DNA of 64,000 nt from Halomonas sp. (GTDB lineage Bacteria > Pseudomonadota > Gammaproteobacteria > Pseudomonadales > Halomonadaceae), in NCBI RefSeq assembly GCF_017983445.1, contig NZ_JAGOBJ010000003.1:310001-374000 (forward strand), read 5' to 3'. The stretch's first letter is position 1. Each line of letters begins with the position of its first letter. Both the position numbers and the translations under genes were made by a program. The notes under the pieces were generated by a model. That model saw only the letters and a list, made by a program, of their open reading frames with translations. It did no database searches and was not told the origin of the DNA. Positions 2,896 through 17,644 of the stretch are shown piece by piece.

Positions 2896-3098
2896 CGCCG
2901 CTAAGCATTAAGCCAGGCGCAGTTTTGAATTCCTTTCATTCCTTTCTTACAGATCGTTACTCACTAATATCACCCTCGGTGATACCTGATACATTAAATG
3001 CATTCCAATTTGGCATGCATTAAGCGTTTTTTTTCGTTTGTGATCTCGCCTGATAATTTGCTTTGATAACGTCATTCACCCTGAATGGCAGAAAAGCA

Positions 3099-4358
3099 AT
3101 GGCGATGGATCTTCCTCATGTAAGTGCTGCGTTAGGCGTTTTACACCCTATTTGTATAGCCCGTGGGCGTAATGCGGAGGTTTGGGATGAATCAGGCCAG
3201 CGCTATATCGATTTTATCGGCGGCATCGGCGTGCTTAACCTTGGTCATAGCCATCCGGCAGTAGTGGAAGCCGTTCAAAGCCAGGTAGAAACGTTAATGC
3301 ATTCTGCATTTAACGCAGTACCACACCGGGGTTATCTGTCGGTAGTAGGCGCATTAAACCAGTTTGTACCGGTCTCCTATCCGCTCTCCTGCATGCTCAC
3401 CAATAGTGGTGCGGAAGCAACCGAAAACGCTCTCAAAGTGGCTCGAGGCGTCACTGGGCGACAAGCAGTTATTGCCTTCGATGATGCTTTTCATGGGCGA
3501 ACGCTGGCCGCCTTGAACTTGAATGGCAAGGTTAAACCTTACAAGTCAGGTCTTGGCGCCTTACCGGGGCCGGTTTACCACCTGCCTTTCCCGAGCCGCG
3601 ATAGCGGTGTGACCGATGAACAGGCGCTTGCCGCGTTGGAACGGCTATTTGAAGTTGAAATACCCGCCGATGAAGTGGCGTGCATGATCGTTGAACCCAT
3701 CCAGGGAGAAGGTGGCTTTCGCCTACTGTGCCCTAAGTTCGCCAAGGCAATGCGTGAAATCTGTAATCAACACAGCATCGTACTGATATTTGACGAAATT
3801 CAATCAGGGTTCGGACGCAGTGGTAAGCGTTTTGGCTTTTCACACTTGGGCGTTGAGCCAGATCTTCTGTTGATGGGCAAAAGCATCGCCTCAGGATTGC
3901 CGCTGGCGGCATTAGCGGGGCGGGCAGAGCTGATGGATGCGTTACCCAAAGGTGCGCTGGGTGGTACATACTCAGGCAATGCAGTGGCATGCGCAGCTGC
4001 ACTGGCCGTCATGGACATCATGCAGGAAGAGGTGCTTGCCTGCTGGGGAGAGCGGCAGGAAGCGCTGATAGTTGAGGCTTACCAGACGTGGCAGTCGAGC
4101 GGCCGCTTTCCTATGCTGGGAGCTATGACGGGCGTTGGTTCGATGCGGGGTGTTGTTTTCAACGATACGCAAAATGCCACAGGTGCCGAGCATCTGACGG
4201 CGCTATTGACCGCCGGACGTAACGCTGGCGTTCTGCTGATGCCCAGCGGGCGCAAACGCAATATTCTACGTTTATTACCGCCGCTCACCACTGAGCCAGA
4301 AATATTAAAAGAAGGTCTAAGCCTTATTGAACAGGCGCTGGAGACGCTAAGCGCATGA
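3099..4358 (+). CDS. Class III PLP aminotransferase, GabT-like; probable 2-aminoadipate transaminase
   Basis: About 419 residues of the class III omega-aminotransferase fold: substrate loop GGIGVLNLGHSHP, PLP phosphate contact NSGAEATENALK, DDAFHGRT, IFDEIQSGFGRSG with the PLP-binding Asp, and GKSIASGLPLAAL with the Schiff-base Lys. Sequence alone suggests 4-aminobutyrate aminotransferase. The next two genes, YdiJ and HglS, act after 2-oxoadipate, and in Pseudomonas putida a GabT-like enzyme supplies that keto acid, so 2-aminoadipate is the likelier amino donor; this is inferred from context. The start is uncertain: ATG 3099 or 3105, with a TTG at 3063 also open; none has a strong ribosome site. 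Its TGA overlaps the next ATG (ATGA). Confidence 0.82.
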   Translation: MAMDLPHVSAALGVLHPICIARGRNAEVWDESGQRYIDFIGGIGVLNLGHSHPAVVEAVQSQVETLMHSAFNAVPHRGYLSVVGALNQFVPVSYPLSCMLTNSGAEATENALKVARGVTGRQAVIAFDDAFHGRTLAALNLNGKVKPYKSGLGALPGPVYHLPFPSRDSGVTDEQALAALERLFEVEIPADEVACMIVEPIQGEGGFRLLCPKFAKAMREICNQHSIVLIFDEIQSGFGRSGKRFGFSHLGVEPDLLLMGKSIASGLPLAALAGRAELMDALPKGALGGTYSGNAVACAAALAVMDIMQEEVLACWGERQEALIVEAYQTWQSSGRFPMLGAMTGVGSMRGVVFNDTQNATGAEHLTALLTAGRNAGVLLMPSGRKRNILRLLPPLTTEPEILKEGLSLIEQALETLSA

Positions 4359-7300
4359 TCGCAATGCAAGCCGGTGAAAGTGTTAGCGCGGTATATCAGC
4401 GCTTTCTGAAAGCCCTGAAGACCCGCGGCTTCGACGGCGAGATTGCCCCTGACTACGCTCAGCGCACGGTACTGGCAACCGATAACTCGATCTATCAGCG
4501 CCTGCCCCAGGCGGTGGTCTTTCCCCGCCATGCCGAAGATCTGGAGCGCCTCGCCAAGCTGGCGGCCGAGATGCCTTACCGTGACGTCGTCCTTACCCCG
4601 CGAGGCGGCGGTACCGGCACCAACGGCCAATCGCTCACCGACGGGATCGTGGTGGATGTGTCCCGGCATATGAATCAGGTGCTGGAGATCGATGTCGAGG
4701 CCCGCCGGGTACGCGTTCAGGCCGGGGTGGTGAAAGACCAGTTGAACGCTGCGCTAAAACCCCATGGCCTGTTCTTTGCCCCGGAGCTTTCCACCTCCAA
4801 CCGCGCCACCCTTGGCGGCATGATCTCCACCGACGCCAGCGGTCAGGGCAGCTGTGCCTACGGCAAAACCCGCGATCACGTGCTGGAACTCGACACGGTT
4901 TTGCTCGGGGGCCAGCACCTGCATAGCCGGGCGCTGAGTGCCGAGGATGAGCAACACGCCTGCCAGCAGGAGGGGATCATCGGCCGCGTTCACCAGACGG
5001 CGGCGGCGATTATCGACCAGCAGCGCGCGCTGATTGAGGCGACCTTTCCGCCGCTGAACCGCTGCCTGACCGGCTACGACCTGGCCCACCTGCGCGACGC
5101 CGCCGGCCAGTTGAACCTCAATAGCCTGCTGTGCGGCTCGGAAGGCTCGCTGGGGTTTCTGAACGAAGCCGTTCTCAACGTGCTGCCGATTCCCAAGTAC
5201 GCCACGCTGGTCAACGTGCGCTACCCAAGCTTTATGGAGGCCCTGCGCGACGCCAAGGCGCTGATGGCGAATGCCGAACCCATCTCGATCGAGACCATCG
5301 ACGATACGGTGTTGACGCTGGCCATGGCCGATTTTGTCTGGGACAGCGTGGCCGCGTTCTTCCCCGAGAGCGACACACCGATTCGGGGCATCAACCTGGT
5401 CGAGTTCAGCGGCGATGACGCAGGCGCGCTGGCCGAGCAGGTCGAGGCCTTTACCCGTCACTTGGCTCAGGATGCCACGGTCACGCGATTAGGCTATACC
5501 CTGGCCGAAGGCCGTGAGCAGATCGGTGCCGTGTACGGGATGCGCAAGCGCTCGGTCGGCCTGTTAGGCAATGTCCAGGGCGAAAAGCGTCCGCTGCCGT
5601 TTGTCGAAGACACCGCCGTACCGCCGGAGCACCTGGCCGCGTTTATCGCGGAATTCCGCGCCGCGCTGGACGCCCGCGGGCTCACTTACGGAATGTTCGG
5701 CCACGTCGATGCCGGGGTACTGCACGTGCGCCCCGCCCTGGACATGAAAGACCCGGCCCAGGCAGCGCTGATTCGGGAAATCTCCGATGAGGTGGCCGCC
5801 CTGACTCAAAAGTACGGTGGGCTACTATGGGGCGAGCATGGTAAAGGCGTGCGCTCCGAGTACGCACCTAAATTTTTTGGCGCACTCTACCCCAGCTTAC
5901 AACGGGTCAAAGCGGCTTTTGACCCGTATCACCAGCTCAATCCCGGCAAAATTGCGTCGCCGGCAGAGGGTGGCGAAGAAGACCGCGCGCTGATCGCCAA
6001 AGACAGCGACCCGAACCTGCTAACAATTGACGGCGTGCCGATGCGCGGCCAGTTGGACCGCACGATCGACGAGCGCGCCTGGCAGGCCTATGACGCAGCG
6101 GTGTACTGCAACGGCAACGGCGCCTGCTACAACTACGATGTCGATGACCCCATGTGCCCCTCGTGGAAGGCGACCCGTGATCGCCTTCACTCGCCCAAGG
6201 GGCGCGCCAGCCTGATTCGCGAATGGCTGCGCCTGCAGTCCCAGGCGGGTATTGACGTGGTGGAAGAGTCACGCCAGAAGAAAGCCGAGCGCACCTGGGG
6301 GTTTATCAAGCACTACCCGAAACGCATAGCCAATACGCTCAGCCGCCAGCAGCACCACGACTACTCCCACCAGGTGTATGACGCCATGGCCGGGTGCCTG
6401 GCGTGCAAATCCTGCACGGGGCAATGCCCTATCAAGGTCAATGTGCCGCAGTTTCGTTCGCAGTTCCTGGAGGTCTACCACGGGCGCTATTTACGCCCGT
6501 TGCGCGACTACGTGATTGGCGGCACGGAGTTCATGCTGCCCACGCTTGCCAAGGCAGCGCCGCTGTATAATGCCTTGATGGGCCAGCGCTGGATGGAAAC
6601 GCTGATGCGGCGTGGCGTGGGCATGAGCGACTCACCGTTACTCTCCCGCGCCAGTGTGAAAAAGCAGCTGCGGGCCTGGGGCGTGGCGGAAGCCACGCCC
6701 CAGGCCCTGCTCACCGAGCAGCAGCGCGCCCAGAGCGTGATTGTGGTTCAGGATGCCTTCACCACGCACTTTGAAGCCAAGCTGGTGATGGACGTGATCG
6801 AACTGCTCTCACGCCTGAACCTGCGCGTGTTCGTGATGCCGTATAGTGCCAACGGCAAGCCGCTGCACGTACAAGGCTTTTTAGGCGCCTTTGAGCGCAC
6901 GGCGGAAAAGCAGGCCAAACGCCTGCGCGCCTTAAGTGAGTTTGAGGTGCCCATGGTGGGCATCGACCCGGCCATGACCCTGACCTACCGCCAGGAGTAC
7001 GTGAAAGCGCTGGGCGCCGACGCCGTGCCTGACGTGTTAATGCTTCAGGAGTGGCTGGCCACACGGGTGAACACTTTAGCGCCCAACCATCTTTCACTGC
7101 GCGACCCCGGCTTTACGCTGCTGTCCCACTGTACGGAAAAGACCAATGCGCCCGGCAGCCCCAAAGCATGGCAACAGGTATTTGCCTCGTTTGGCCTAAC
7201 GCTTGAGTTGGCGGCGACGGGCTGCTGCGGCATGTCCGGCACCTACGGTCATGAAACCCGTAACGCCGACACCTCCAAAACCATCTACGCCCAGTCCTGG

Positions 7301-7477
7301 CAGCCGCAGGTGGAAACCCCCGAGAATGCGGGCAAACTGCTGGCGACGGGCTATTCGTGCCGCAGTCAGGTGAAGCGCTTTTCACATATAAGCTTACAAC
7401 ATCCCCTTCAGGCACTATTAGCACAACTAAAATCAAACACTCCTTTTCACCGTAACAATATGCATAGAGAGCTGTGA
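4355..7477 (+). CDS. ydiJ: YdiJ-type FAD/Fe-S D-2-hydroxyglutarate dehydrogenase
   Basis: 1040 residues, the usual size of YdiJ. An N-terminal FAD_binding_4 domain carries TPRGGGTGTNGQSL near residue 85. A FAD-oxidase C domain follows (YGMFGHVDAGVLHVRP, WGEHGKGVRSEY). Then come cysteine-rich segments (CNGNGACYNYD, and CLACKSCTGQCPIKVN near residue 685) that fit 4Fe-4S binding, and a CCG-type domain with TGCCGMSGTYGHE. The enzyme oxidises D-2-hydroxyglutarate to 2-oxoglutarate and passes electrons to the respiratory chain. It overlaps the aminotransferase by four bases and is followed by hglS after one base, so the three are translationally coupled. Confidence 0.9.
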   Translation: MIAMQAGESVSAVYQRFLKALKTRGFDGEIAPDYAQRTVLATDNSIYQRLPQAVVFPRHAEDLERLAKLAAEMPYRDVVLTPRGGGTGTNGQSLTDGIVVDVSRHMNQVLEIDVEARRVRVQAGVVKDQLNAALKPHGLFFAPELSTSNRATLGGMISTDASGQGSCAYGKTRDHVLELDTVLLGGQHLHSRALSAEDEQHACQQEGIIGRVHQTAAAIIDQQRALIEATFPPLNRCLTGYDLAHLRDAAGQLNLNSLLCGSEGSLGFLNEAVLNVLPIPKYATLVNVRYPSFMEALRDAKALMANAEPISIETIDDTVLTLAMADFVWDSVAAFFPESDTPIRGINLVEFSGDDAGALAEQVEAFTRHLAQDATVTRLGYTLAEGREQIGAVYGMRKRSVGLLGNVQGEKRPLPFVEDTAVPPEHLAAFIAEFRAALDARGLTYGMFGHVDAGVLHVRPALDMKDPAQAALIREISDEVAALTQKYGGLLWGEHGKGVRSEYAPKFFGALYPSLQRVKAAFDPYHQLNPGKIASPAEGGEEDRALIAKDSDPNLLTIDGVPMRGQLDRTIDERAWQAYDAAVYCNGNGACYNYDVDDPMCPSWKATRDRLHSPKGRASLIREWLRLQSQAGIDVVEESRQKKAERTWGFIKHYPKRIANTLSRQQHHDYSHQVYDAMAGCLACKSCTGQCPIKVNVPQFRSQFLEVYHGRYLRPLRDYVIGGTEFMLPTLAKAAPLYNALMGQRWMETLMRRGVGMSDSPLLSRASVKKQLRAWGVAEATPQALLTEQQRAQSVIVVQDAFTTHFEAKLVMDVIELLSRLNLRVFVMPYSANGKPLHVQGFLGAFERTAEKQAKRLRALSEFEVPMVGIDPAMTLTYRQEYVKALGADAVPDVLMLQEWLATRVNTLAPNHLSLRDPGFTLLSHCTEKTNAPGSPKAWQQVFASFGLTLELAATGCCGMSGTYGHETRNADTSKTIYAQSWQPQVETPENAGKLLATGYSCRSQVKRFSHISLQHPLQALLAQLKSNTPFHRNNMHREL

Positions 7478-7478
7478 A

Positions 7479-8840
7479 ATGAACCACGCACTGTTTTTAG
7501 CAACCAATGATATTCGCGACCGTTTCTCCAAAGCCATGTCGGCGATGTATCAAACCGAAGTGCCCCAGTACGGCACGCTATTGGCGTTGGTCGAGCAGGT
7601 AAACCAGGAAACGCTTAGCCAGCAGCCAGAGTTACGCCGCCGCCTTGAGGCCCAGGGCGAGCTTGCGCGTCTGAGCGTAGAGCGCCACGGGGCAATTCGC
7701 GTGGGCTCAGCCGAAGAGCTATCCATGCTGCGCCGCCTGTTTGCCGTGATGGGCATGTACCCGGTGGGCTATTACGACCTTTCTGAAGCGGGGGTGCCGG
7801 TTCACTCCACAGCGTTTCGTCCTGTCGAGGATGACGCGCTGGCCTGCAACCCGTTCCGCGTTTTTACCTCGCTGCTGCGCCTGGAACTCATCGAGAGCGA
7901 GACGCTGCACCAGCGTGCCGAAGAAATTCTGGCCAAACGGGATATTTTCACGCCCGCCGCCCGTGAGCTGATTGAGCGTTTTGAAAACCAGGGCGGATTA
8001 ACCTCTGAAGAGGCGGATCAATTCGTTAAAGAGGCCCTGGAAACCTTCCGCTGGCACCAGGATGCCACGGTAGATCTGGATACTTACCACGCGCTGAGCG
8101 ATGAACACCGCCTGATTGCCGATGTGGTGTGTTTTCGTGGGCCGCATATCAACCATTTAACGCCGCGCACCCTGGACATCGACGAAGTTCAGCGCCGTAT
8201 GCCAAGCGTTGGCATGAACCCCAAGGCGGTCATCGAAGGCCCACCGCGCCGTGAAGCGCCCATTTTGCTACGCCAGACAAGCTTCAAGGCGTTAGAGGAA
8301 TCGATCCGCTTTGCAGGCGATGCCCAGGGCACGCATACCGCCCGCTTTGGCGAAATTGAGCAGCGCGGCATGGCGCTTACGCCGAAAGGACGCGCGCTTT
8401 ATGATCAGCTGCTTAACGAAGGCCGTAAACAAACCGCGGGGCTGGATAACAACGCTCACCAGGCGGTCATGAACAAGGTATTTGCCGCCATGCCGGATAG
8501 CGATGAAGCAATGCGACGTGAAGGTCTGGCCTACTTTCACTACCATCTTACAGAAGCTGGGAAAGCCGCTGCAGGTGATGCCGGCACCGATATGAACGCC
8601 CTGATTGCCAAAGGGCTGGTAGAGGCGCAGCCGATTACCTATGAAGACTTTTTGCCGGTCAGCGCGGCGGGTATCTTCCAGTCGAACCTGGGCGGTGGCG
8701 AAAACGCAGCCTATGCGGGCAATGCCAACCGTGAAGCGTTTGAAGAGGCACTGGGCGCCCCGGTGACCGATGAGCTGGCGCTGTATGCCGAGCGTGAACA
8801 GGCATCCAAGCAGCGCGTACTGGCGTCATTGGAAGGTTAA
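7479..8840 (+). CDS. hglS: HglS, 2-oxoadipate dioxygenase/decarboxylase (DUF1338)
   Basis: 453 residues of the DUF1338/VOC-like family. HglS is an Fe(II) enzyme that turns 2-oxoadipate into D-2-hydroxyglutarate with loss of CO2. Metal and substrate residues can be placed: His70 and Arg74 in VERHGAIRVG, His226 in GPHINHLTPRTLDID, and a glutamate in RFGEIEQRG (Glu291 or Glu293), matching the characterised HglS set as I recall it. The product is the substrate of the gene immediately upstream, so the three-gene operon converts 2-aminoadipate to 2-oxoglutarate. A purine-rich AGAGAGCTGTGAA precedes the ATG. A terminator and a convergent LysR gene follow. Confidence 0.92.
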   Translation: MNHALFLATNDIRDRFSKAMSAMYQTEVPQYGTLLALVEQVNQETLSQQPELRRRLEAQGELARLSVERHGAIRVGSAEELSMLRRLFAVMGMYPVGYYDLSEAGVPVHSTAFRPVEDDALACNPFRVFTSLLRLELIESETLHQRAEEILAKRDIFTPAARELIERFENQGGLTSEEADQFVKEALETFRWHQDATVDLDTYHALSDEHRLIADVVCFRGPHINHLTPRTLDIDEVQRRMPSVGMNPKAVIEGPPRREAPILLRQTSFKALEESIRFAGDAQGTHTARFGEIEQRGMALTPKGRALYDQLLNEGRKQTAGLDNNAHQAVMNKVFAAMPDSDEAMRREGLAYFHYHLTEAGKAAAGDAGTDMNALIAKGLVEAQPITYEDFLPVSAAGIFQSNLGGGENAAYAGNANREAFEEALGAPVTDELALYAEREQASKQRVLASLEG

Positions 8841-8894: not shown

Positions 8895-9791
8895 TTATAC
8901 GCGGCGTTCAGCGCTTGCTGTAATGTGCTCGACAAAGCGGCGTACTTTACCCAGTTCACCCAAGTGCTCGGGGTAGACAAGATAATAGGCGCTTTCGCTG
9001 TATAAAAGATGCGGCCAAGCGAGTATAAGGCGCTCGGCGGCCAGCTCTTCATCCACGGTAAAGTGCGGCACTAAAGCAACGCCTCCACCTGCCATGGCGG
9101 TGCGTACCAGCATGGGGAAGGTCTCAAAACGAGTGCCGTGGTAGCTGCGATCAGTGGTGATTTCTTGACCTGCAAACCAGTGATGCCAGGCATCCGGGCG
9201 GGTAGATAGGTGGAGTAGTGGCAGCTGGGCCAAGTCACTCGCAGTATGGATAGGATGCTTCGCCAGAAGCGATGGGGCGGCAACCGCGACCATTTCTTCA
9301 TCCACCAGTTTATGGCAAGCAAGATTAGGCCAACTACCATGACCGTAAAACAGCGCAATATCGATATCTTGCTGTTCAAGGGCAAAGTCTTCCACCCTGT
9401 CGTGAAATTCCAGACTAATGCCCGGGTTTGCAGCTAGAAAGGCGGGCAGCTTGTCTGCTAGCCAGCGGCTGCCAAAGCTTGGCAGAGTGGCTACCTTGAG
9501 TACTTCACTATTGCCGCTATAGGTCATGATGGTGTGGGTCGACATCTCAATCTGAGCGAGCACCTTGCGCACGTCGCTTAAAAAGATGGCACCCTCCGGC
9601 GTGAGCACAAGCGTGCGTCTTACGCGACGAAACAGCTTATGTTGTAGCGTTGACTCAAGGTGGGCGACCTGTTTGCTGACGGCACTTTGGGTCAGGCTTA
9701 GTTCATCGGCCGCCCGGGTAAAACTCATATGGCGCGCCGCCGCCTCAAAGCACTGCATAGCGGCGGTTGAAGGAAGGTTGCGTGAGGCCAA
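8895..9791 (-). CDS. LysR-type transcriptional regulator, GcvA-like
   Basis: 298 residues. An N-terminal winged helix-turn-helix (FTRAADELSLTQSAVSKQVAHLE) is followed by a LysR effector domain, in the style of GcvA-type regulators (STAAMQCFEAAARHMSFTRAA at the start). The start is set at TTG 9789-9791 because AGGAG lies seven bases before it; a longer GTG start at 9821 has no ribosome site. It is convergent with the aminotransferase-ydiJ-hglS operon and is the nearest candidate regulator of it, but nothing in the sequence proves the link. It could also act on the TRAP transporter that lies upstream on the same strand. Confidence 0.85.
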   Translation of the reverse strand: MASRNLPSTAAMQCFEAAARHMSFTRAADELSLTQSAVSKQVAHLESTLQHKLFRRVRRTLVLTPEGAIFLSDVRKVLAQIEMSTHTIMTYSGNSEVLKVATLPSFGSRWLADKLPAFLAANPGISLEFHDRVEDFALEQQDIDIALFYGHGSWPNLACHKLVDEEMVAVAAPSLLAKHPIHTASDLAQLPLLHLSTRPDAWHHWFAGQEITTDRSYHGTRFETFPMLVRTAMAGGGVALVPHFTVDEELAAERLILAWPHLLYSESAYYLVYPEHLGELGKVRRFVEHITASAERRV

Positions 9792-9863
9792 ATGAAATGC
9801 TCCTGATAACCTGTGAATCACCCCGGTGACCTAGCACCGGGGTGATGTAGAGGTGATCATAAC

Positions 9864-11711
9864 TCATGAAGCGAGTGGCTGAGCATCCTGGAAACTATCC
9901 TTACGACGTGATTGCCACCAACCAATGGCTGCCATGGCAATCAAACCTAAACCGCTGGTCATTAGCTCAGGCACCACCATGGCAAGCCCGGCGGCCAGGA
10001 GTACGAAACGCTCCCATACGCGGGAGTCGCGAATAAAGTAACCCAGTAATGCGCTGCTGACGCCCATAATTCCTAACAGCGAGAAGCCCAATGCGCTAAT
10101 CAAGCCAAGCGGTGTGGGATCAACCATTACCAGCATCGGGTTATAGATAAACGCGTAGGGGATAATAAAGGCCCCAATGGCTAACTTAACGGCGGTAAAA
10201 CCGGTTTTCATTGGGTTAGCTTGAGCGATACCTGCGCCGGCAAAGGCAGCCAAACACACCGGCGGGGTGATATCAGCGATGATGCCAAAATAAAACACGA
10301 ACAGATGCACCGCCATGGGAGGAAGGCCAAACTCATTGATGAGTGCCGGTGCCGCAATAGTAGCGGTAACCACATAGTTGGCCGTAGTGGGTAGCCCCAT
10401 GCCCAGCACGATACAAGCGATCATGGTGAACAGCAGAGCGAGTATCAATACGCCATCAGCTAAACTGATAATACCGGCTGCGAATTTCGCACCCATGCCA
10501 GTCATGCCCACTACGCCTGCAATTATGCCCGCACAGGCTACGGCGGCAATGACCGGTAAAGCCACGCGCGCCCCTTGTTCGAAGATATTGAGAATACCTT
10601 TCAATGAAGGCCGAGTATCTTTACGTACAAAGCTCACCGCAAAGGCGCAAGCGATGCCCAGTAGCGCGGCGCGTTGTGCCGTAAAACCTGCACTAATCGT
10701 GATCACGATGATCAGCAGCGGCAGCAGCATATAACCTTTTTCCAGTAACAGTTTACGCTTGCTTGGCAGCTGGTCTTTGGGAAGCCCCAGGATACGATGG
10801 CGCTTGGCTTCAAAATGAACGCCGATAAAAATACCGGTGAAATAGAGAATTGCAGGGATTAGCGCGGCGAACATGATCTCTCTGTAAGAAACGCCCACGT
10901 ATTCCACCATGATAAATGCGGCTGCCCCCATTAACGGTGGCATGATCTGCCCGCCGGTTGATGCAGAGGCTTCAACTGCACCAGCCACTTCGGGCTTGAA
11001 GCGTGCATTTTTCATCATGGGGATGGTGAACGAGCCAGAAGCGACGGTATTGCCAATAGAGCTGCCGGAAATCATGCCTTGTAGCGCGCTGGCGATGACG
11101 GCTGCTTTACCTGAGCCGCCGGTAAAGCGTCCGGTAACGGCAAAAGCCAAATCATTAAAGAAGCGGCCTACGCCAGTGTGCATCAGCACAACACCGAAGA
11201 ATAAAAACAGGAAGATAAAGCGCGCCGATATTTGCAGAGGTGTACCAAACACACCGCTTTCTCTAAACCATAAATACGGTGAGATCTGCTCAAGTGCAAA
11301 ACCCGGATGGGAGAGTAAGGGGCTCGGGATTAGGTTGCCAAATAGTGCGTACAAAATCGCTATTGCTGCCATGACGACAATAGGCATGCCGACTGTACGG
11401 CGGGTCGCTTCAAGAACAAACAGTACACCCAGAACGGCTATGGTGAGATCAAATGTTGAGTAGCCGGTAATACGGGCGCGCAGCACCTCTTCGTAAAAGA
11501 TGATTTTATAATAGGCTGTAAATGTCGCTGTAAAAGCCAGTACGATATCGTACCAGGGAACGCCGTGGCGAGGACTGGCGCCACGTGTGGCAGGAAAGAG
11601 GATGAATATCATCCCAAGAGCCATGCCAAGGTGAACAGCACCTTGCTGCTGTGAAGGAAGCGTACCGAAATAAGCTGTGTAAAGGTGGAAGCAGGTGAGT
11701 GATACGCCCAT
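9864..11711 (-). CDS. TAXI-type TRAP transporter fused DctQ-DctM permease (5' end displaced by an A9 run)
   Basis: The open frame from ATG 11711 encodes 615 residues of a fused small-plus-large TRAP permease with many membrane helices. The family signature is clear: GSSIGNTVASGSFTIPMMKN, EASASTGGQIMPPLMGAAAF, and GMGLPTTANYVV. It imports an organic acid with sodium or proton gradients, fed by the TAXI binding protein encoded just upstream. ATG 11711 cuts the first membrane helix in half. The same frame continues upstream as family-like sequence (ASLLEKYDRESQVRS) but hits TAA without a start codon. A well-placed GTG at 11819-11821 is one base out of frame across an A9 run. The true protein therefore probably starts there; see the separate feature. 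Confidence 0.85.
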   Translation of the reverse strand: MGVSLTCFHLYTAYFGTLPSQQQGAVHLGMALGMIFILFPATRGASPRHGVPWYDIVLAFTATFTAYYKIIFYEEVLRARITGYSTFDLTIAVLGVLFVLEATRRTVGMPIVVMAAIAILYALFGNLIPSPLLSHPGFALEQISPYLWFRESGVFGTPLQISARFIFLFLFFGVVLMHTGVGRFFNDLAFAVTGRFTGGSGKAAVIASALQGMISGSSIGNTVASGSFTIPMMKNARFKPEVAGAVEASASTGGQIMPPLMGAAAFIMVEYVGVSYREIMFAALIPAILYFTGIFIGVHFEAKRHRILGLPKDQLPSKRKLLLEKGYMLLPLLIIVITISAGFTAQRAALLGIACAFAVSFVRKDTRPSLKGILNIFEQGARVALPVIAAVACAGIIAGVVGMTGMGAKFAAGIISLADGVLILALLFTMIACIVLGMGLPTTANYVVTATIAAPALINEFGLPPMAVHLFVFYFGIIADITPPVCLAAFAGAGIAQANPMKTGFTAVKLAIGAFIIPYAFIYNPMLVMVDPTPLGLISALGFSLLGIMGVSSALLGYFIRDSRVWERFVLLAAGLAMVVPELMTSGLGLIAMAAIGWWQSRRKDSFQDAQPLAS

Positions 11712-11880: not shown

Positions 11881-12876
11881 TTAGTTAGCCAAATCGCTCA
11901 AGCTTTCAATCTTGGAGCGCTCGCGAGTGACAATCTGAATGACTTCTGGATAGATATGCCCGATGAAAGCGACGTTATCGATAGCGCCGCTGTCGAACTC
12001 TCCACGGCCTTCAACGGCGTCTTGAGCAGGCGCATGAACCGTCATCCCAAGATCCATACTATTGTCGCGAATGCTCACTAGGTTCTCGATTGAGGCACCG
12101 GTCTCGATGTTGGTGAAATTCTGGCCATCCAGGTAACGGTTCCAGATAGTCGCCATCTCGCCACCCAGCGGGTAGTAAGTACCGCCTTGGCTACCGGTGC
12201 CCAGGACGAATTCACTTTTAGGCTCAATATCGCCCAGCTCTGCCACGGAATTATCGACAGTCAACCCTTGCTCTTCATAATAGCGCTTGGCGCCAGGATG
12301 AATGGGCAGACCTTCAGAGCCGTTTAAAGCATTTTCCAGGGTCATGAATGCTGATTGAGCATGCGTATTCTCTTCAGCATGCTCATGCATCAAACGAGCC
12401 AGCTCATAGCCTAGCTCCTCATCAATAGTCTGGGTATTGCCGACCAAAATAGCGTAGGCCGTGATGGTTTCTACATCCTGATCCTGAAAGTCGTAGCTAC
12501 CGGCCGGAATCGTGAAGCGTTTATAGGCACTATTGGCTTCGATGTAGTCGATCGCCTCGTCACTTAGGCCCAGTAGTCGAGCGTCACCGCTGGAAGCTTG
12601 CAGGTTTTCAATACTGCCTGAAGGCAAACCAAGAATGCCGATTGAAATATCAATGTTGCCATCTTGAACGCCATCAAGTGCAGCGCCAAAGCCCTCTTGA
12701 TACGTGCTGTATTTGTCCTTGCCTATACCGTAGGCATCAAAGAGCAGTTGGGAAACGCTTTGCGTTGTACTGGCAGGAGGCCCAATAGCAATATTAGGTT
12801 TACTGTCGCTACTACATCCCGCTAGTAAAAGACCAGCACTTAAGCCACAGCAGACCTTGGATAGGTAAGGTTTCAT
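11881..12876 (-). CDS. TAXI-family TRAP substrate-binding lipoprotein, circularly permuted
   Basis: 331 residues with a lipoprotein signal ending LLLAGC (Cys21). The start is ATG 12876, with AGGAGT five bases before it. The mature protein contains both halves of a TAXI-type binding protein in reversed order. Residues about 26-205 match the usual C-terminal two thirds: AIGPPASTTQ, DGNIDISIGILGLPSGSI, FTIPAGSY, and the normal C-terminal end GLPIHPGAKRYYEEQG. After a linker, residues about 223-331 match the usual N-terminal third: FVLGTGSQGGTYYPLGG, GASIENLVSIRDN, IGHIYPEVIQIV, and finally SKIESLSDLAN. In normal members SLSDL-GK runs directly into the V.GPPGS segment that here begins the mature protein. 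Total length matches an unpermuted protein. It precedes the fused TAXI permease, its expected partner. Confidence 0.9.
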   Translation of the reverse strand: MKPYLSKVCCGLSAGLLLAGCSSDSKPNIAIGPPASTTQSVSQLLFDAYGIGKDKYSTYQEGFGAALDGVQDGNIDISIGILGLPSGSIENLQASSGDARLLGLSDEAIDYIEANSAYKRFTIPAGSYDFQDQDVETITAYAILVGNTQTIDEELGYELARLMHEHAEENTHAQSAFMTLENALNGSEGLPIHPGAKRYYEEQGLTVDNSVAELGDIEPKSEFVLGTGSQGGTYYPLGGEMATIWNRYLDGQNFTNIETGASIENLVSIRDNSMDLGMTVHAPAQDAVEGRGEFDSGAIDNVAFIGHIYPEVIQIVTRERSKIESLSDLAN

Positions 12877-15860: not shown

Positions 15861-15952
15861 CCAACGCCTCCCTTAATGACATAAAAGATGGCGATTAACG
15901 CCCCCTTGCTGCGCATGTCATAATGACGCTGTCGCGCACTTTGAGTTCCGCC

Positions 15953-17644
15953 ATGACTGATTCCCGCCCCCGTACCTTAGCTGAATTACAGCGCTGGCGC
16001 CGTACTCGTGCGAAACGGCGCTGGTATAAACGTAGCTTTCGTTTACAGGTAATGATGCTGGTTGGCTTACTTCTGGCCGGCATGCTACTGGCTCAGGGTA
16101 CATATCTCAATCATCGTAAAGCAGATATTATCAGCCATCAGATCGGTGAGCGGGCACTGGCTGTGGCTAAAACGGTGGCTAGCATGCCGCAAATCATCGA
16201 TGCATTTGCCACGCCTGACCCTGCGATAATTATTCAGCCGCTGGCAGAGCGGGTGCGCCTGGAAACCGGTGCGCGCTACGTGGTCGTGGGTAATATGCAG
16301 TCGATTCGCTATTCGCACCCTATGCCCGAACGCCTTGGTCACCGAATGGTGGGGGGCGATAACGATCGAGCGCTATTGTATGGCCAATCCTATATATCCG
16401 AAGCTACGGGAACCCTGGGTATCGCCATGCGTGGTAAAACGCCGGTGTGGGATGAAGAAGGCAATATCATCGGACTCGTCTCTGTCGGTTTTCTGATGGA
16501 TCGTGTCGAGATGGACGTGGCACGTTATACAAGCCTTGGGTGGGCATTGGTCGCATTGATGATTCTGTTGGGCTTTGCAGGCGCTTACTGGCTTTCCCAG
16601 CATCTGAAAAAGGTCATTCTGGGTCTGGAACCTTATGAAATTGCCCGCTTGGCGATGGAAAAAGAAGCCATCTTGCAGTCAATTCATGAGGGAATCCTAG
16701 CGGTTAACCGCGACGGCCATATTACGCTGGTTAACCAACAGGCACGCCGCTTTCTAGAGCTGTCCGATGAACATGTACTCTTAGGCCAGCCGATTCGGGA
16801 AGTCGTTCCCAATTCGCGCCTGATTGAAGTGCTCAAGCACGGTAAGCAGGAGTTTGATCAAGAAATGTGGCTGGGTGATCATCCAGTGGTAGTGAACCGC
16901 GTGCCTATACTCCACAACGATGAGATTGAGGGCGCCGTGGCAACGTTTCGCAGTCGGCGCGAAATTATTGACCTTTCCCAGGCGCTCACCCAGGCAAGCC
17001 GTGATGTCGATATGCTGCGCGCTCAGGCTCACGAATTTTCCAACAAACTTTATACCATTTCCGGCTTGCTACAGCTTCAGCGTATTGATGAAGCGCTAGC
17101 GCTGATACATCAGGAAACCGAACGTGCCCAGGCTCAGATGAACTTTTTGATGCGCCACGTCGCTGATACGGTGCTAAGCGGTACACTGCTGGGTAAACTT
17201 ACACGTGCCCGTGAGATGGGCGTAACTATGGAAATTGATGAGCAAAGCTCGCTTTCTCGCCAGCTAACGCCGACGGGTCAGGAAGCAATGATGAGCGTAG
17301 TGGGCAATTTATTGGATAACGCCTGCCATGCGGCACTTCATGGCCCGAATGCCTCGTCCCCCAAAGTACGGCTTTTTTTTACTGACCTAGGTGAGCAACT
17401 ACTGGTTGAGGTAGAAGATAATGGCCCAGGCATACCCGAAGCGCATGCTGAAACAGTATTTCAGGAGGGGTTTTCCACCAAAACCGGCAAGCATCGAGGG
17501 ATTGGACTAGCGCTGGTAGCACGGCTATGCCGCCAGCACGGGGGCGAGGTAACCTTAGAGGAAAGTGAGCTAGGTGGCGCATGTTTTATAGCAGTACTTG
17601 ACCGTTCGCTGTGTCTTCCATCTGACATAGCCGATGAAACATAA
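15953..17644 (+). CDS. CitA/DcuS-type sensor histidine kinase
   Basis: About 563 residues. TM1 near residues 32-54, a periplasmic PAS domain with citrate-type contacts (SIRYSHP, AMRGKTPVWD), TM2, a cytoplasmic PAS, then the kinase core. The H-box is AHEFSNKLYTISGLLQL, the CitA/DcuS form. The N-box is NLLDNACHAAL and the G-boxes are EDNGPGIP and GIGLALV. It senses an external di- or tricarboxylate and phosphorylates the regulator encoded next. Given CitMHS and TctCBA downstream, citrate is the likely ligand. The start at 15953 is preferred over 15923, but neither has a good ribosome site. Confidence 0.88.
   Translation: MTDSRPRTLAELQRWRRTRAKRRWYKRSFRLQVMMLVGLLLAGMLLAQGTYLNHRKADIISHQIGERALAVAKTVASMPQIIDAFATPDPAIIIQPLAERVRLETGARYVVVGNMQSIRYSHPMPERLGHRMVGGDNDRALLYGQSYISEATGTLGIAMRGKTPVWDEEGNIIGLVSVGFLMDRVEMDVARYTSLGWALVALMILLGFAGAYWLSQHLKKVILGLEPYEIARLAMEKEAILQSIHEGILAVNRDGHITLVNQQARRFLELSDEHVLLGQPIREVVPNSRLIEVLKHGKQEFDQEMWLGDHPVVVNRVPILHNDEIEGAVATFRSRREIIDLSQALTQASRDVDMLRAQAHEFSNKLYTISGLLQLQRIDEALALIHQETERAQAQMNFLMRHVADTVLSGTLLGKLTRAREMGVTMEIDEQSSLSRQLTPTGQEAMMSVVGNLLDNACHAALHGPNASSPKVRLFFTDLGEQLLVEVEDNGPGIPEAHAETVFQEGFSTKTGKHRGIGLALVARLCRQHGGEVTLEESELGGACFIAVLDRSLCLPSDIADET

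Follow-up and report, generated by a model that had tools for sequence, protein, structure and literature searches.

The window (the whole 64,000-nucleotide stretch of Halomonas sp. DNA that was analysed) contains a group of transporter genes on the minus strand, on which three enzyme genes converge. The receptor gene (11881..12876, -) encodes a predicted lipoprotein of 331 amino acids and runs from an ATG at 12876, with AGGAG just 5' of it, to a stop codon at 11883-11881 (11881-11883, -); re-reading of the ORF confirmed the coordinates and length given in an earlier note on this DNA. The fused TRAP permease (9864..11711, -; TIGR02123, 706.2 bits, cut-off 320.65) is its probable partner. A LysR-type regulator (8895..9821, -) is encoded on the same strand as the transporter genes, and a relative of it is found in 25 of 26 gammaproteobacterial loci. 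The converging genes, each above its NCBIfam equivalog cut-off, encode 2-aminoadipate transaminase (3063..4358, +; NF049976, 738.2 bits, cut-off 650), the D-2-hydroxyglutarate dehydrogenase YdiJ (4355..7477, +; NF049975, 1537 bits, cut-off 1350) and the 2-oxoadipate dioxygenase/decarboxylase HglS (7479..8840, +; NF049974, 746 bits, cut-off 550). Near the transporter cluster, at 15923-17644 (+), lies a gene for a sensor kinase with sCache_3_2, PAS and SPOB_a domains, presumably of the kind that senses small carboxylates.

The receptor begins with a signal peptide and lipobox ending at Cys21 (12814..12876, -), assigned by motif, which agrees with its earlier description as a lipoprotein. Residues 28-205 (12262..12795, -) correspond to the C-terminal part of an ordinary TAXI protein and comprise most of lobe 2, the second hinge strand (135-147) and the end part of lobe 1. 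A linker of about 16 residues (206-221; 12214..12261, -), close to the 17 or so first proposed, then bridges the old C-terminus to the old N-terminus. Residues 222-331 (11884..12213, -) correspond to the ordinary N-terminal part, with the start of lobe 1, the first hinge strand (302-318) and a short helix in lobe 2. The spacing from the end of the HPGA..YYEEQG motif to LGTGS is 19-22 residues in 101 of 106 unique permuted proteins (those with both motifs). The receptor is nearly as long as ordinary TAXI ORFs (331 residues against a median of 337), as the earlier note had said; its further claim that nothing is lost does not hold entirely, as about 3-4 residues of the ordinary sisters (often G-K-R) have no counterpart at the cut.

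The swapped order of the two parts was identified by profile and structure matches. The Pfam profile NMT1_3 (PF16868; 211 bits, cut-off 27) and TIGR02122 (219.9 bits, cut-off 84.35) each match the receptor in two stretches, the best of which aligns receptor residues 28/29-204 to the C-terminal part of the profile. All seven TAXI chains found in the PDB likewise match in two stretches, with the order swapped in all five whose alignments are shown. Among these is VcGluP (VC0430, PDB 8s4j/9ibo), a glutamate-binding TAXI TRAP receptor that is homologous over both stretches (109 bits): receptor residues 224-330 correspond to residues 7-116 of the 8s4j chain, and 29-205 to 120-298. The remaining two PDB matches, both hyaluronidase chains (E 0.37 and 0.39), were disregarded. 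Four further TAXI genes in the same genome align piecewise to the receptor, and the three with both pieces found have the ordinary order. The receptor thus passes the curated TAXI cut-offs but fails to be collinear with the profile; a collinear chain is usual among TAXI proteins and is not required by the cut-off, so that profile annotation can hide permutations of this kind. As they match in two swapped stretches, the receptor and its relatives are filed as a permuted branch by descent rather than as ordinary TAXI members. A full-length collinear reading is ruled out by these matches, and the circular permutation claimed in the earlier note is confirmed as an observation and, at the level of sequence, supported as an interpretation.

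In VcGluP, lobe 1 consists of residues 29-115 and 268-328, the hinge strands of 116-131 and 255-267, and lobe 2 of 132-254 (PMC11574862). When the 8s4j alignment is followed by hand, the cut lies between the equivalents of VcGluP residues 144 and 148, inside lobe 2 and 13-17 residues beyond the first hinge strand. By sequence, the new ends are placed in a loop of lobe 2 just after that strand; their earlier placement exactly at the first hinge crossing was slightly off. Since the cut lies past the first hinge strand and within lobe 2, both hinge crossings remain covalent, and lobe 1 (about residues 148-301) becomes one continuous inserted piece, with both ends borne by lobe 2. Ordinary TAXI proteins have the reverse arrangement, with both ends on lobe 1. 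An AlphaFold model of the receptor (37 sequences) has a pLDDT of 85.7 and a pTM of 0.82, and its long strands, 302-318 and 135-147, are where VcGluP hinge strands 116-131 and 255-267 map by hand; the control, an ordinary TAXI protein with a shallow alignment (three were tried), reached a pLDDT of 51.2. Foldseek, which keeps the chain order, aligned only about 200 columns of the model to TAXI chains, with a TM-score near 0.45; such a partial alignment is as a permutation would predict, yet is no proof of the whole fold. End-to-end Foldseek matches to PtxB, PhnD and OpuAC gave query TM-scores of 0.35-0.47 with rmsd above 5, and no conclusion was drawn from them.

The residues that contact the ligand in VcGluP are kept only in part. 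Residues equivalent to VcGluP S40, Y45, Y46, S75, E125 and G203 are kept in 105-106 of the 106 permuted proteins and fall in the swapped parts of the chain. By contrast, V44, Q93, H123, D157, Y200 and M201 are changed in all 106, with Q93, H123, Y200 and D157 replaced by V, Y, G, T or S. VcGluP is like the permuted receptor in having several of its ligand contacts kept and in hinge strands that map onto the long strands of the model, and differs from it in its ordinary chain order and in several other contact residues. The change of Y200 to G may leave more room in the pocket. The changes at V44, Q93, H123, D157 and Y200 are mostly common to the 20 ordinary-order sisters described below (17-20 of 20). 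Only the position of G156, close to the new N-terminus, sets the permuted branch apart: it is G in 17 of the 20 sisters, and in the permuted proteins it is kept in 11 of 106 and is E, T or A in 95. As the contact residues, G156 apart, are mostly those of the sisters, the pocket is largely the sisters' own with one change close to the cut.

The neighbouring genes bear on the likely cargo. HglS is described in PMC7286885 as converting 2-oxoadipate to D-2-hydroxyglutarate in lysine catabolism. At least one of the 2-aminoadipate transaminase, HglS and YdiJ is found in 23 of 26 gammaproteobacterial loci, compared with 0 of 54 Gram-positive loci, counted at the thresholds used in stretches of at most 11 kb per locus; the stretches of the other three gammaproteobacterial loci, including that of the nearest relative L027, have none of them. 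Most genomes of the genus have HglS in any case (76 of 82 over the cut-off). By coordinates compared by eye, it is no more than about 10 kb from the permuted gene in 15 of the 19 genomes of the genus that carry the permuted form; in the other four it is on another contig (three) or is a mere fragment (one). These neighbours tip the balance slightly towards 2-aminoadipate, or else 2-oxoadipate or 2-hydroxyglutarate, as the cargo in Halomonas. The adjacent transaminase, HglS and YdiJ would then convert imported 2-aminoadipate or a close relative to 2-oxoglutarate, and the system would be a specific candidate for the import of 2-aminoadipate or a related acid. A literature search for a 2-aminoadipate TRAP transporter returned nothing to the point. 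A less probable cargo, which nevertheless deserves weight, is glutamate as for VcGluP, with the lysine-pathway genes as chance neighbours: several glutamate-contact residues are kept, and the Gram-positive members have no pathway genes nearby. Against glutamate stand the replacement of Q93, H123, Y200 and D157 throughout the permuted proteins, the convergence of three pathway genes on the transporter genes in the window, and the closeness of HglS to the permuted gene in most of the carrier genomes of the genus. At two other loci (L239:3980-8678 and L240:7567-13062), the genes of an ordinary sister receptor and its permease precede a gene for a class III aminotransferase resembling glutamate-1-semialdehyde aminomutase, a possible hint to cargo.

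Phylogenetic analysis was performed with quick trees, without bootstraps and midpoint-rooted, in which long branches were flagged among the distant ordinary rows. In the tree made after the segments had been put in a common order (94 rows, 40 permuted and 54 ordinary), the permuted proteins form one side of a branch (SH-aLRT 99). They lie within a group (support 100) that otherwise consists of 20 ordinary-order rows from Bacillota genomes, and this nesting indicates shared ancestry with the ordinary TAXI receptors. One permuted clade is also recovered from each segment by itself (SH-aLRT 97 and 97, with 12 of the distant ordinary rows left out), and the clade has a support of 98 when five divergent members are added. 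The partial permease tree (82 rows) has one clade of permuted partners (support 100), the exact sister of which is not resolved in this tree. The trees support the view that the permuted form arose once from an ordinary-order TAXI receptor with Bacillota relatives, and likewise that the permuted receptor stayed with its own permease lineage. With the ordinary form as outgroup, the permuted form is the derived one. Since gammaproteobacterial rows are found among Bacillota rows, a transfer from Bacillota to gammaproteobacteria is the simplest reading, and Halomonadaceae together with the Oceanisphaera relatives probably received the gene in this way.

Tandem duplication with fusion is a usual route to circular permutation. 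Three loci (L058, L060 and L065; two from Siminovitchia and one from Bacillus norwichensis) have two operons in tandem, in which an ordinary TAXI gene and its permease immediately precede the permuted TAXI gene and its permease. The tandem ordinary copy in L060 is only about 30-38% identical and hence is not the parent of the permuted gene. No repeated-part intermediate with more than two profile stretches was found among 225 matching ORFs, and a search for more ordinary sisters in the family of G896 gave 1 of 54, G896 itself. A fusion of halves from two different TAXI genes, in place of permutation of a single gene, is improbable. It would find support in the tandem operons, and in the ordinary rows nearest to each part (of ten compared), which differ between segment A (marginally L203, median 58.1%, and L163, 57.5%) and segment B (L204, 64.9%, then L210 and L207). 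These nearest rows, however, all belong to one ordinary group, and either half by itself places the permuted proteins in a single clade. The separate segment trees speak against a fusion of unrelated halves; fusion of two copies of one duplicated gene could have given the permuted order.

A permease gene follows directly after 149 of 151 permuted ORFs, a count that includes duplicates between searches. The two permuted genes lacking an adjacent permease are those of L066, whose strain has another locus (L084), and L168, whose genome (G1113) has a second permuted copy. In five divergent members (L228-L232), the permuted order holds over one stretch, and the tree puts them within the permuted clade, next to Oceanisphaera (support 98 and 100). 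No relative of the window permease is found within 16-17 kb around their genes (loci L233-L237), which precede genes read by eye as a his operon; in L234, an HglS gene (57% identical) is located directly before the permuted gene. The five genomes contain seven fused permeases over the cut-off, at most 48% identical to that of the window, and most of the seven adjoin an ordinary TAXI gene. These five proteins may have either borrowed a permease or taken on a new role. They and the permeases of their genomes are what would favour a reading in which the receptor no longer serves transport and is now a sensor or other ligand-binding lipoprotein. This reading is very improbable in view of the permease that follows nearly all other permuted ORFs, the single permuted clade in the permease tree and the intact permease in the window. 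The best explanation as a whole, held with high confidence, is that this circularly permuted chain works as the substrate-binding protein of a TRAP transporter of the TAXI type. Such a receptor would still close on its ligand as a Venus flytrap and would hand it to the fused permease at 9864-11711.

Permuted TAXI proteins are a conserved branch common to many species. A scan of one genome per species (84,980 species) gave 135 loci encoding a relative; in the best 80 of these 135, with identities of 61-98%, all 80 proteins align to the permuted query without a change of order for more than 270 residues. Homologues with the same order, for which the earlier note had proposed a search, are thus present in many species. 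The named hosts are Halomonadaceae, Oceanisphaera, Oceanimonas, one Pseudomonas and many Bacillaceae and Caryophanaceae. An artefact of sequencing or assembly, which a misjoined contig could produce in one genome and for which no actual support was found, is refuted, since all 80 loci share the order and come mostly from separate assemblies, and since several genomes on a single contig (for example G028, G043, G048 and G051) show it too. The permuted form is present in 19 of 82 genomes of the genus and 20 of 201 of the family, where a gap in E from 6.5e-180 to 8.8e-33 separates permuted from ordinary proteins. Other samples gave 2 of 398 genomes for the phylum, both from the genus of the window, 1 of 398 for Bacillota, this being the centre genome itself, 26 of 146 for the family of G622, 10 of 299 for the order of G631 and 10 of 75 for the family of G626. 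As the samples are each centred on a carrier and overlap, with only the first few candidates per genome scored in the larger ones, these counts are not prevalences. No match to the permuted receptor was found among plasmids in PLSDB at E 1e-60.

The permutation also moves the lipid anchor. Cys21 is invariant in the 37 aligned permuted proteins, and the lipobox and first-strand motifs are present in 105 of the 106 unique ones. Measured by motif, 92 of 105 permuted proteins have 6-9 residues between the lipid Cys and the first-strand motif (6-18 over all 105), compared with 9-67 residues from the lipid Cys to the GTGS motif in 19 of the 20 ordinary sisters. As the cut lies inside lobe 2, the anchor shifts from lobe 1 to lobe 2, and this shift, together with the short spacer, makes for a closer and differently placed attachment. 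The idea that the lipid is anchored at the hinge is right in that the anchor is near it; by the VcGluP mapping of the cut it sits on lobe 2 and not in the hinge itself. Membrane attachment through lobe 2 on a short tether would set how the receptor is presented to the permease. Tentatively, the permutation may have been kept for this re-siting of the anchor: a tether of 6-9 residues on lobe 2 near the hinge would fix the docking pose on the receptor's own permease lineage and make the receptor a part of the transporter, not a free shuttle, and the pair would then have passed from Gram-positives to halophilic gammaproteobacteria, serving there to import 2-aminoadipate. The permuted branch offers a natural experiment on the meeting of a binding protein with its secondary transporter, with the same family and kind of permease but with ends and anchor on the other lobe.

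Several known systems can be compared with this one. The permease of VcGluP carries a claw domain, DUF3394 (PMC11574862), whereas that of the window has only a short partial match to DUF3394 (residues 6-48 of the 181-residue profile, 29.6 bits, cut-off 28.2). TpMglB-2 (PMC4990184) is likewise a two-lobed, tethered binding protein that has been circularly permuted in nature and has relatives in Gram-positives, and its authors raise tethering as a possible reason for the permuted ABC receptor. It belongs to another transporter class (ABC) and another class of binding protein, and its permuted part is poorly conserved and might derive from another gene, whereas both TAXI parts keep 55-65% median identity to their nearest ordinary sisters. 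BP0403 of the TAXI-GltS system is also a TAXI lipoprotein of unusual architecture; according to PMC12344293, it differs in having extra domains ahead of a standard SBP domain and in its link to GltS in place of a TRAP permease, and a word search of that paper did not find the stem "permut". A permuted TRAP receptor was not found in a literature search that included word searches in PMC11574862, PMC12344293 and PMC12667903 and left subscription papers mostly beyond its reach. Within the literature searched, the earlier statement that no permuted TRAP-TAXI receptor has been described is borne out. Natural permutation of a binding protein is already known from TpMglB-2, and for a permuted TRAP receptor no earlier description was found. 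Also among the closest systems are the ordinary Bacillota sisters L163, L204, L207 and L210, which are 51-58% identical segment by segment, also have a permease downstream, and differ from the window receptor in their ordinary order and in the spacer behind the lipid Cys. Ordinary-order sisters at about 50-65% identity are available for comparison with the permuted receptor. In one further sister locus (L241:4127-7601), the permease gene of the ordinary sister is split around a same-strand ORF of 400 amino acids, possibly an insertion.
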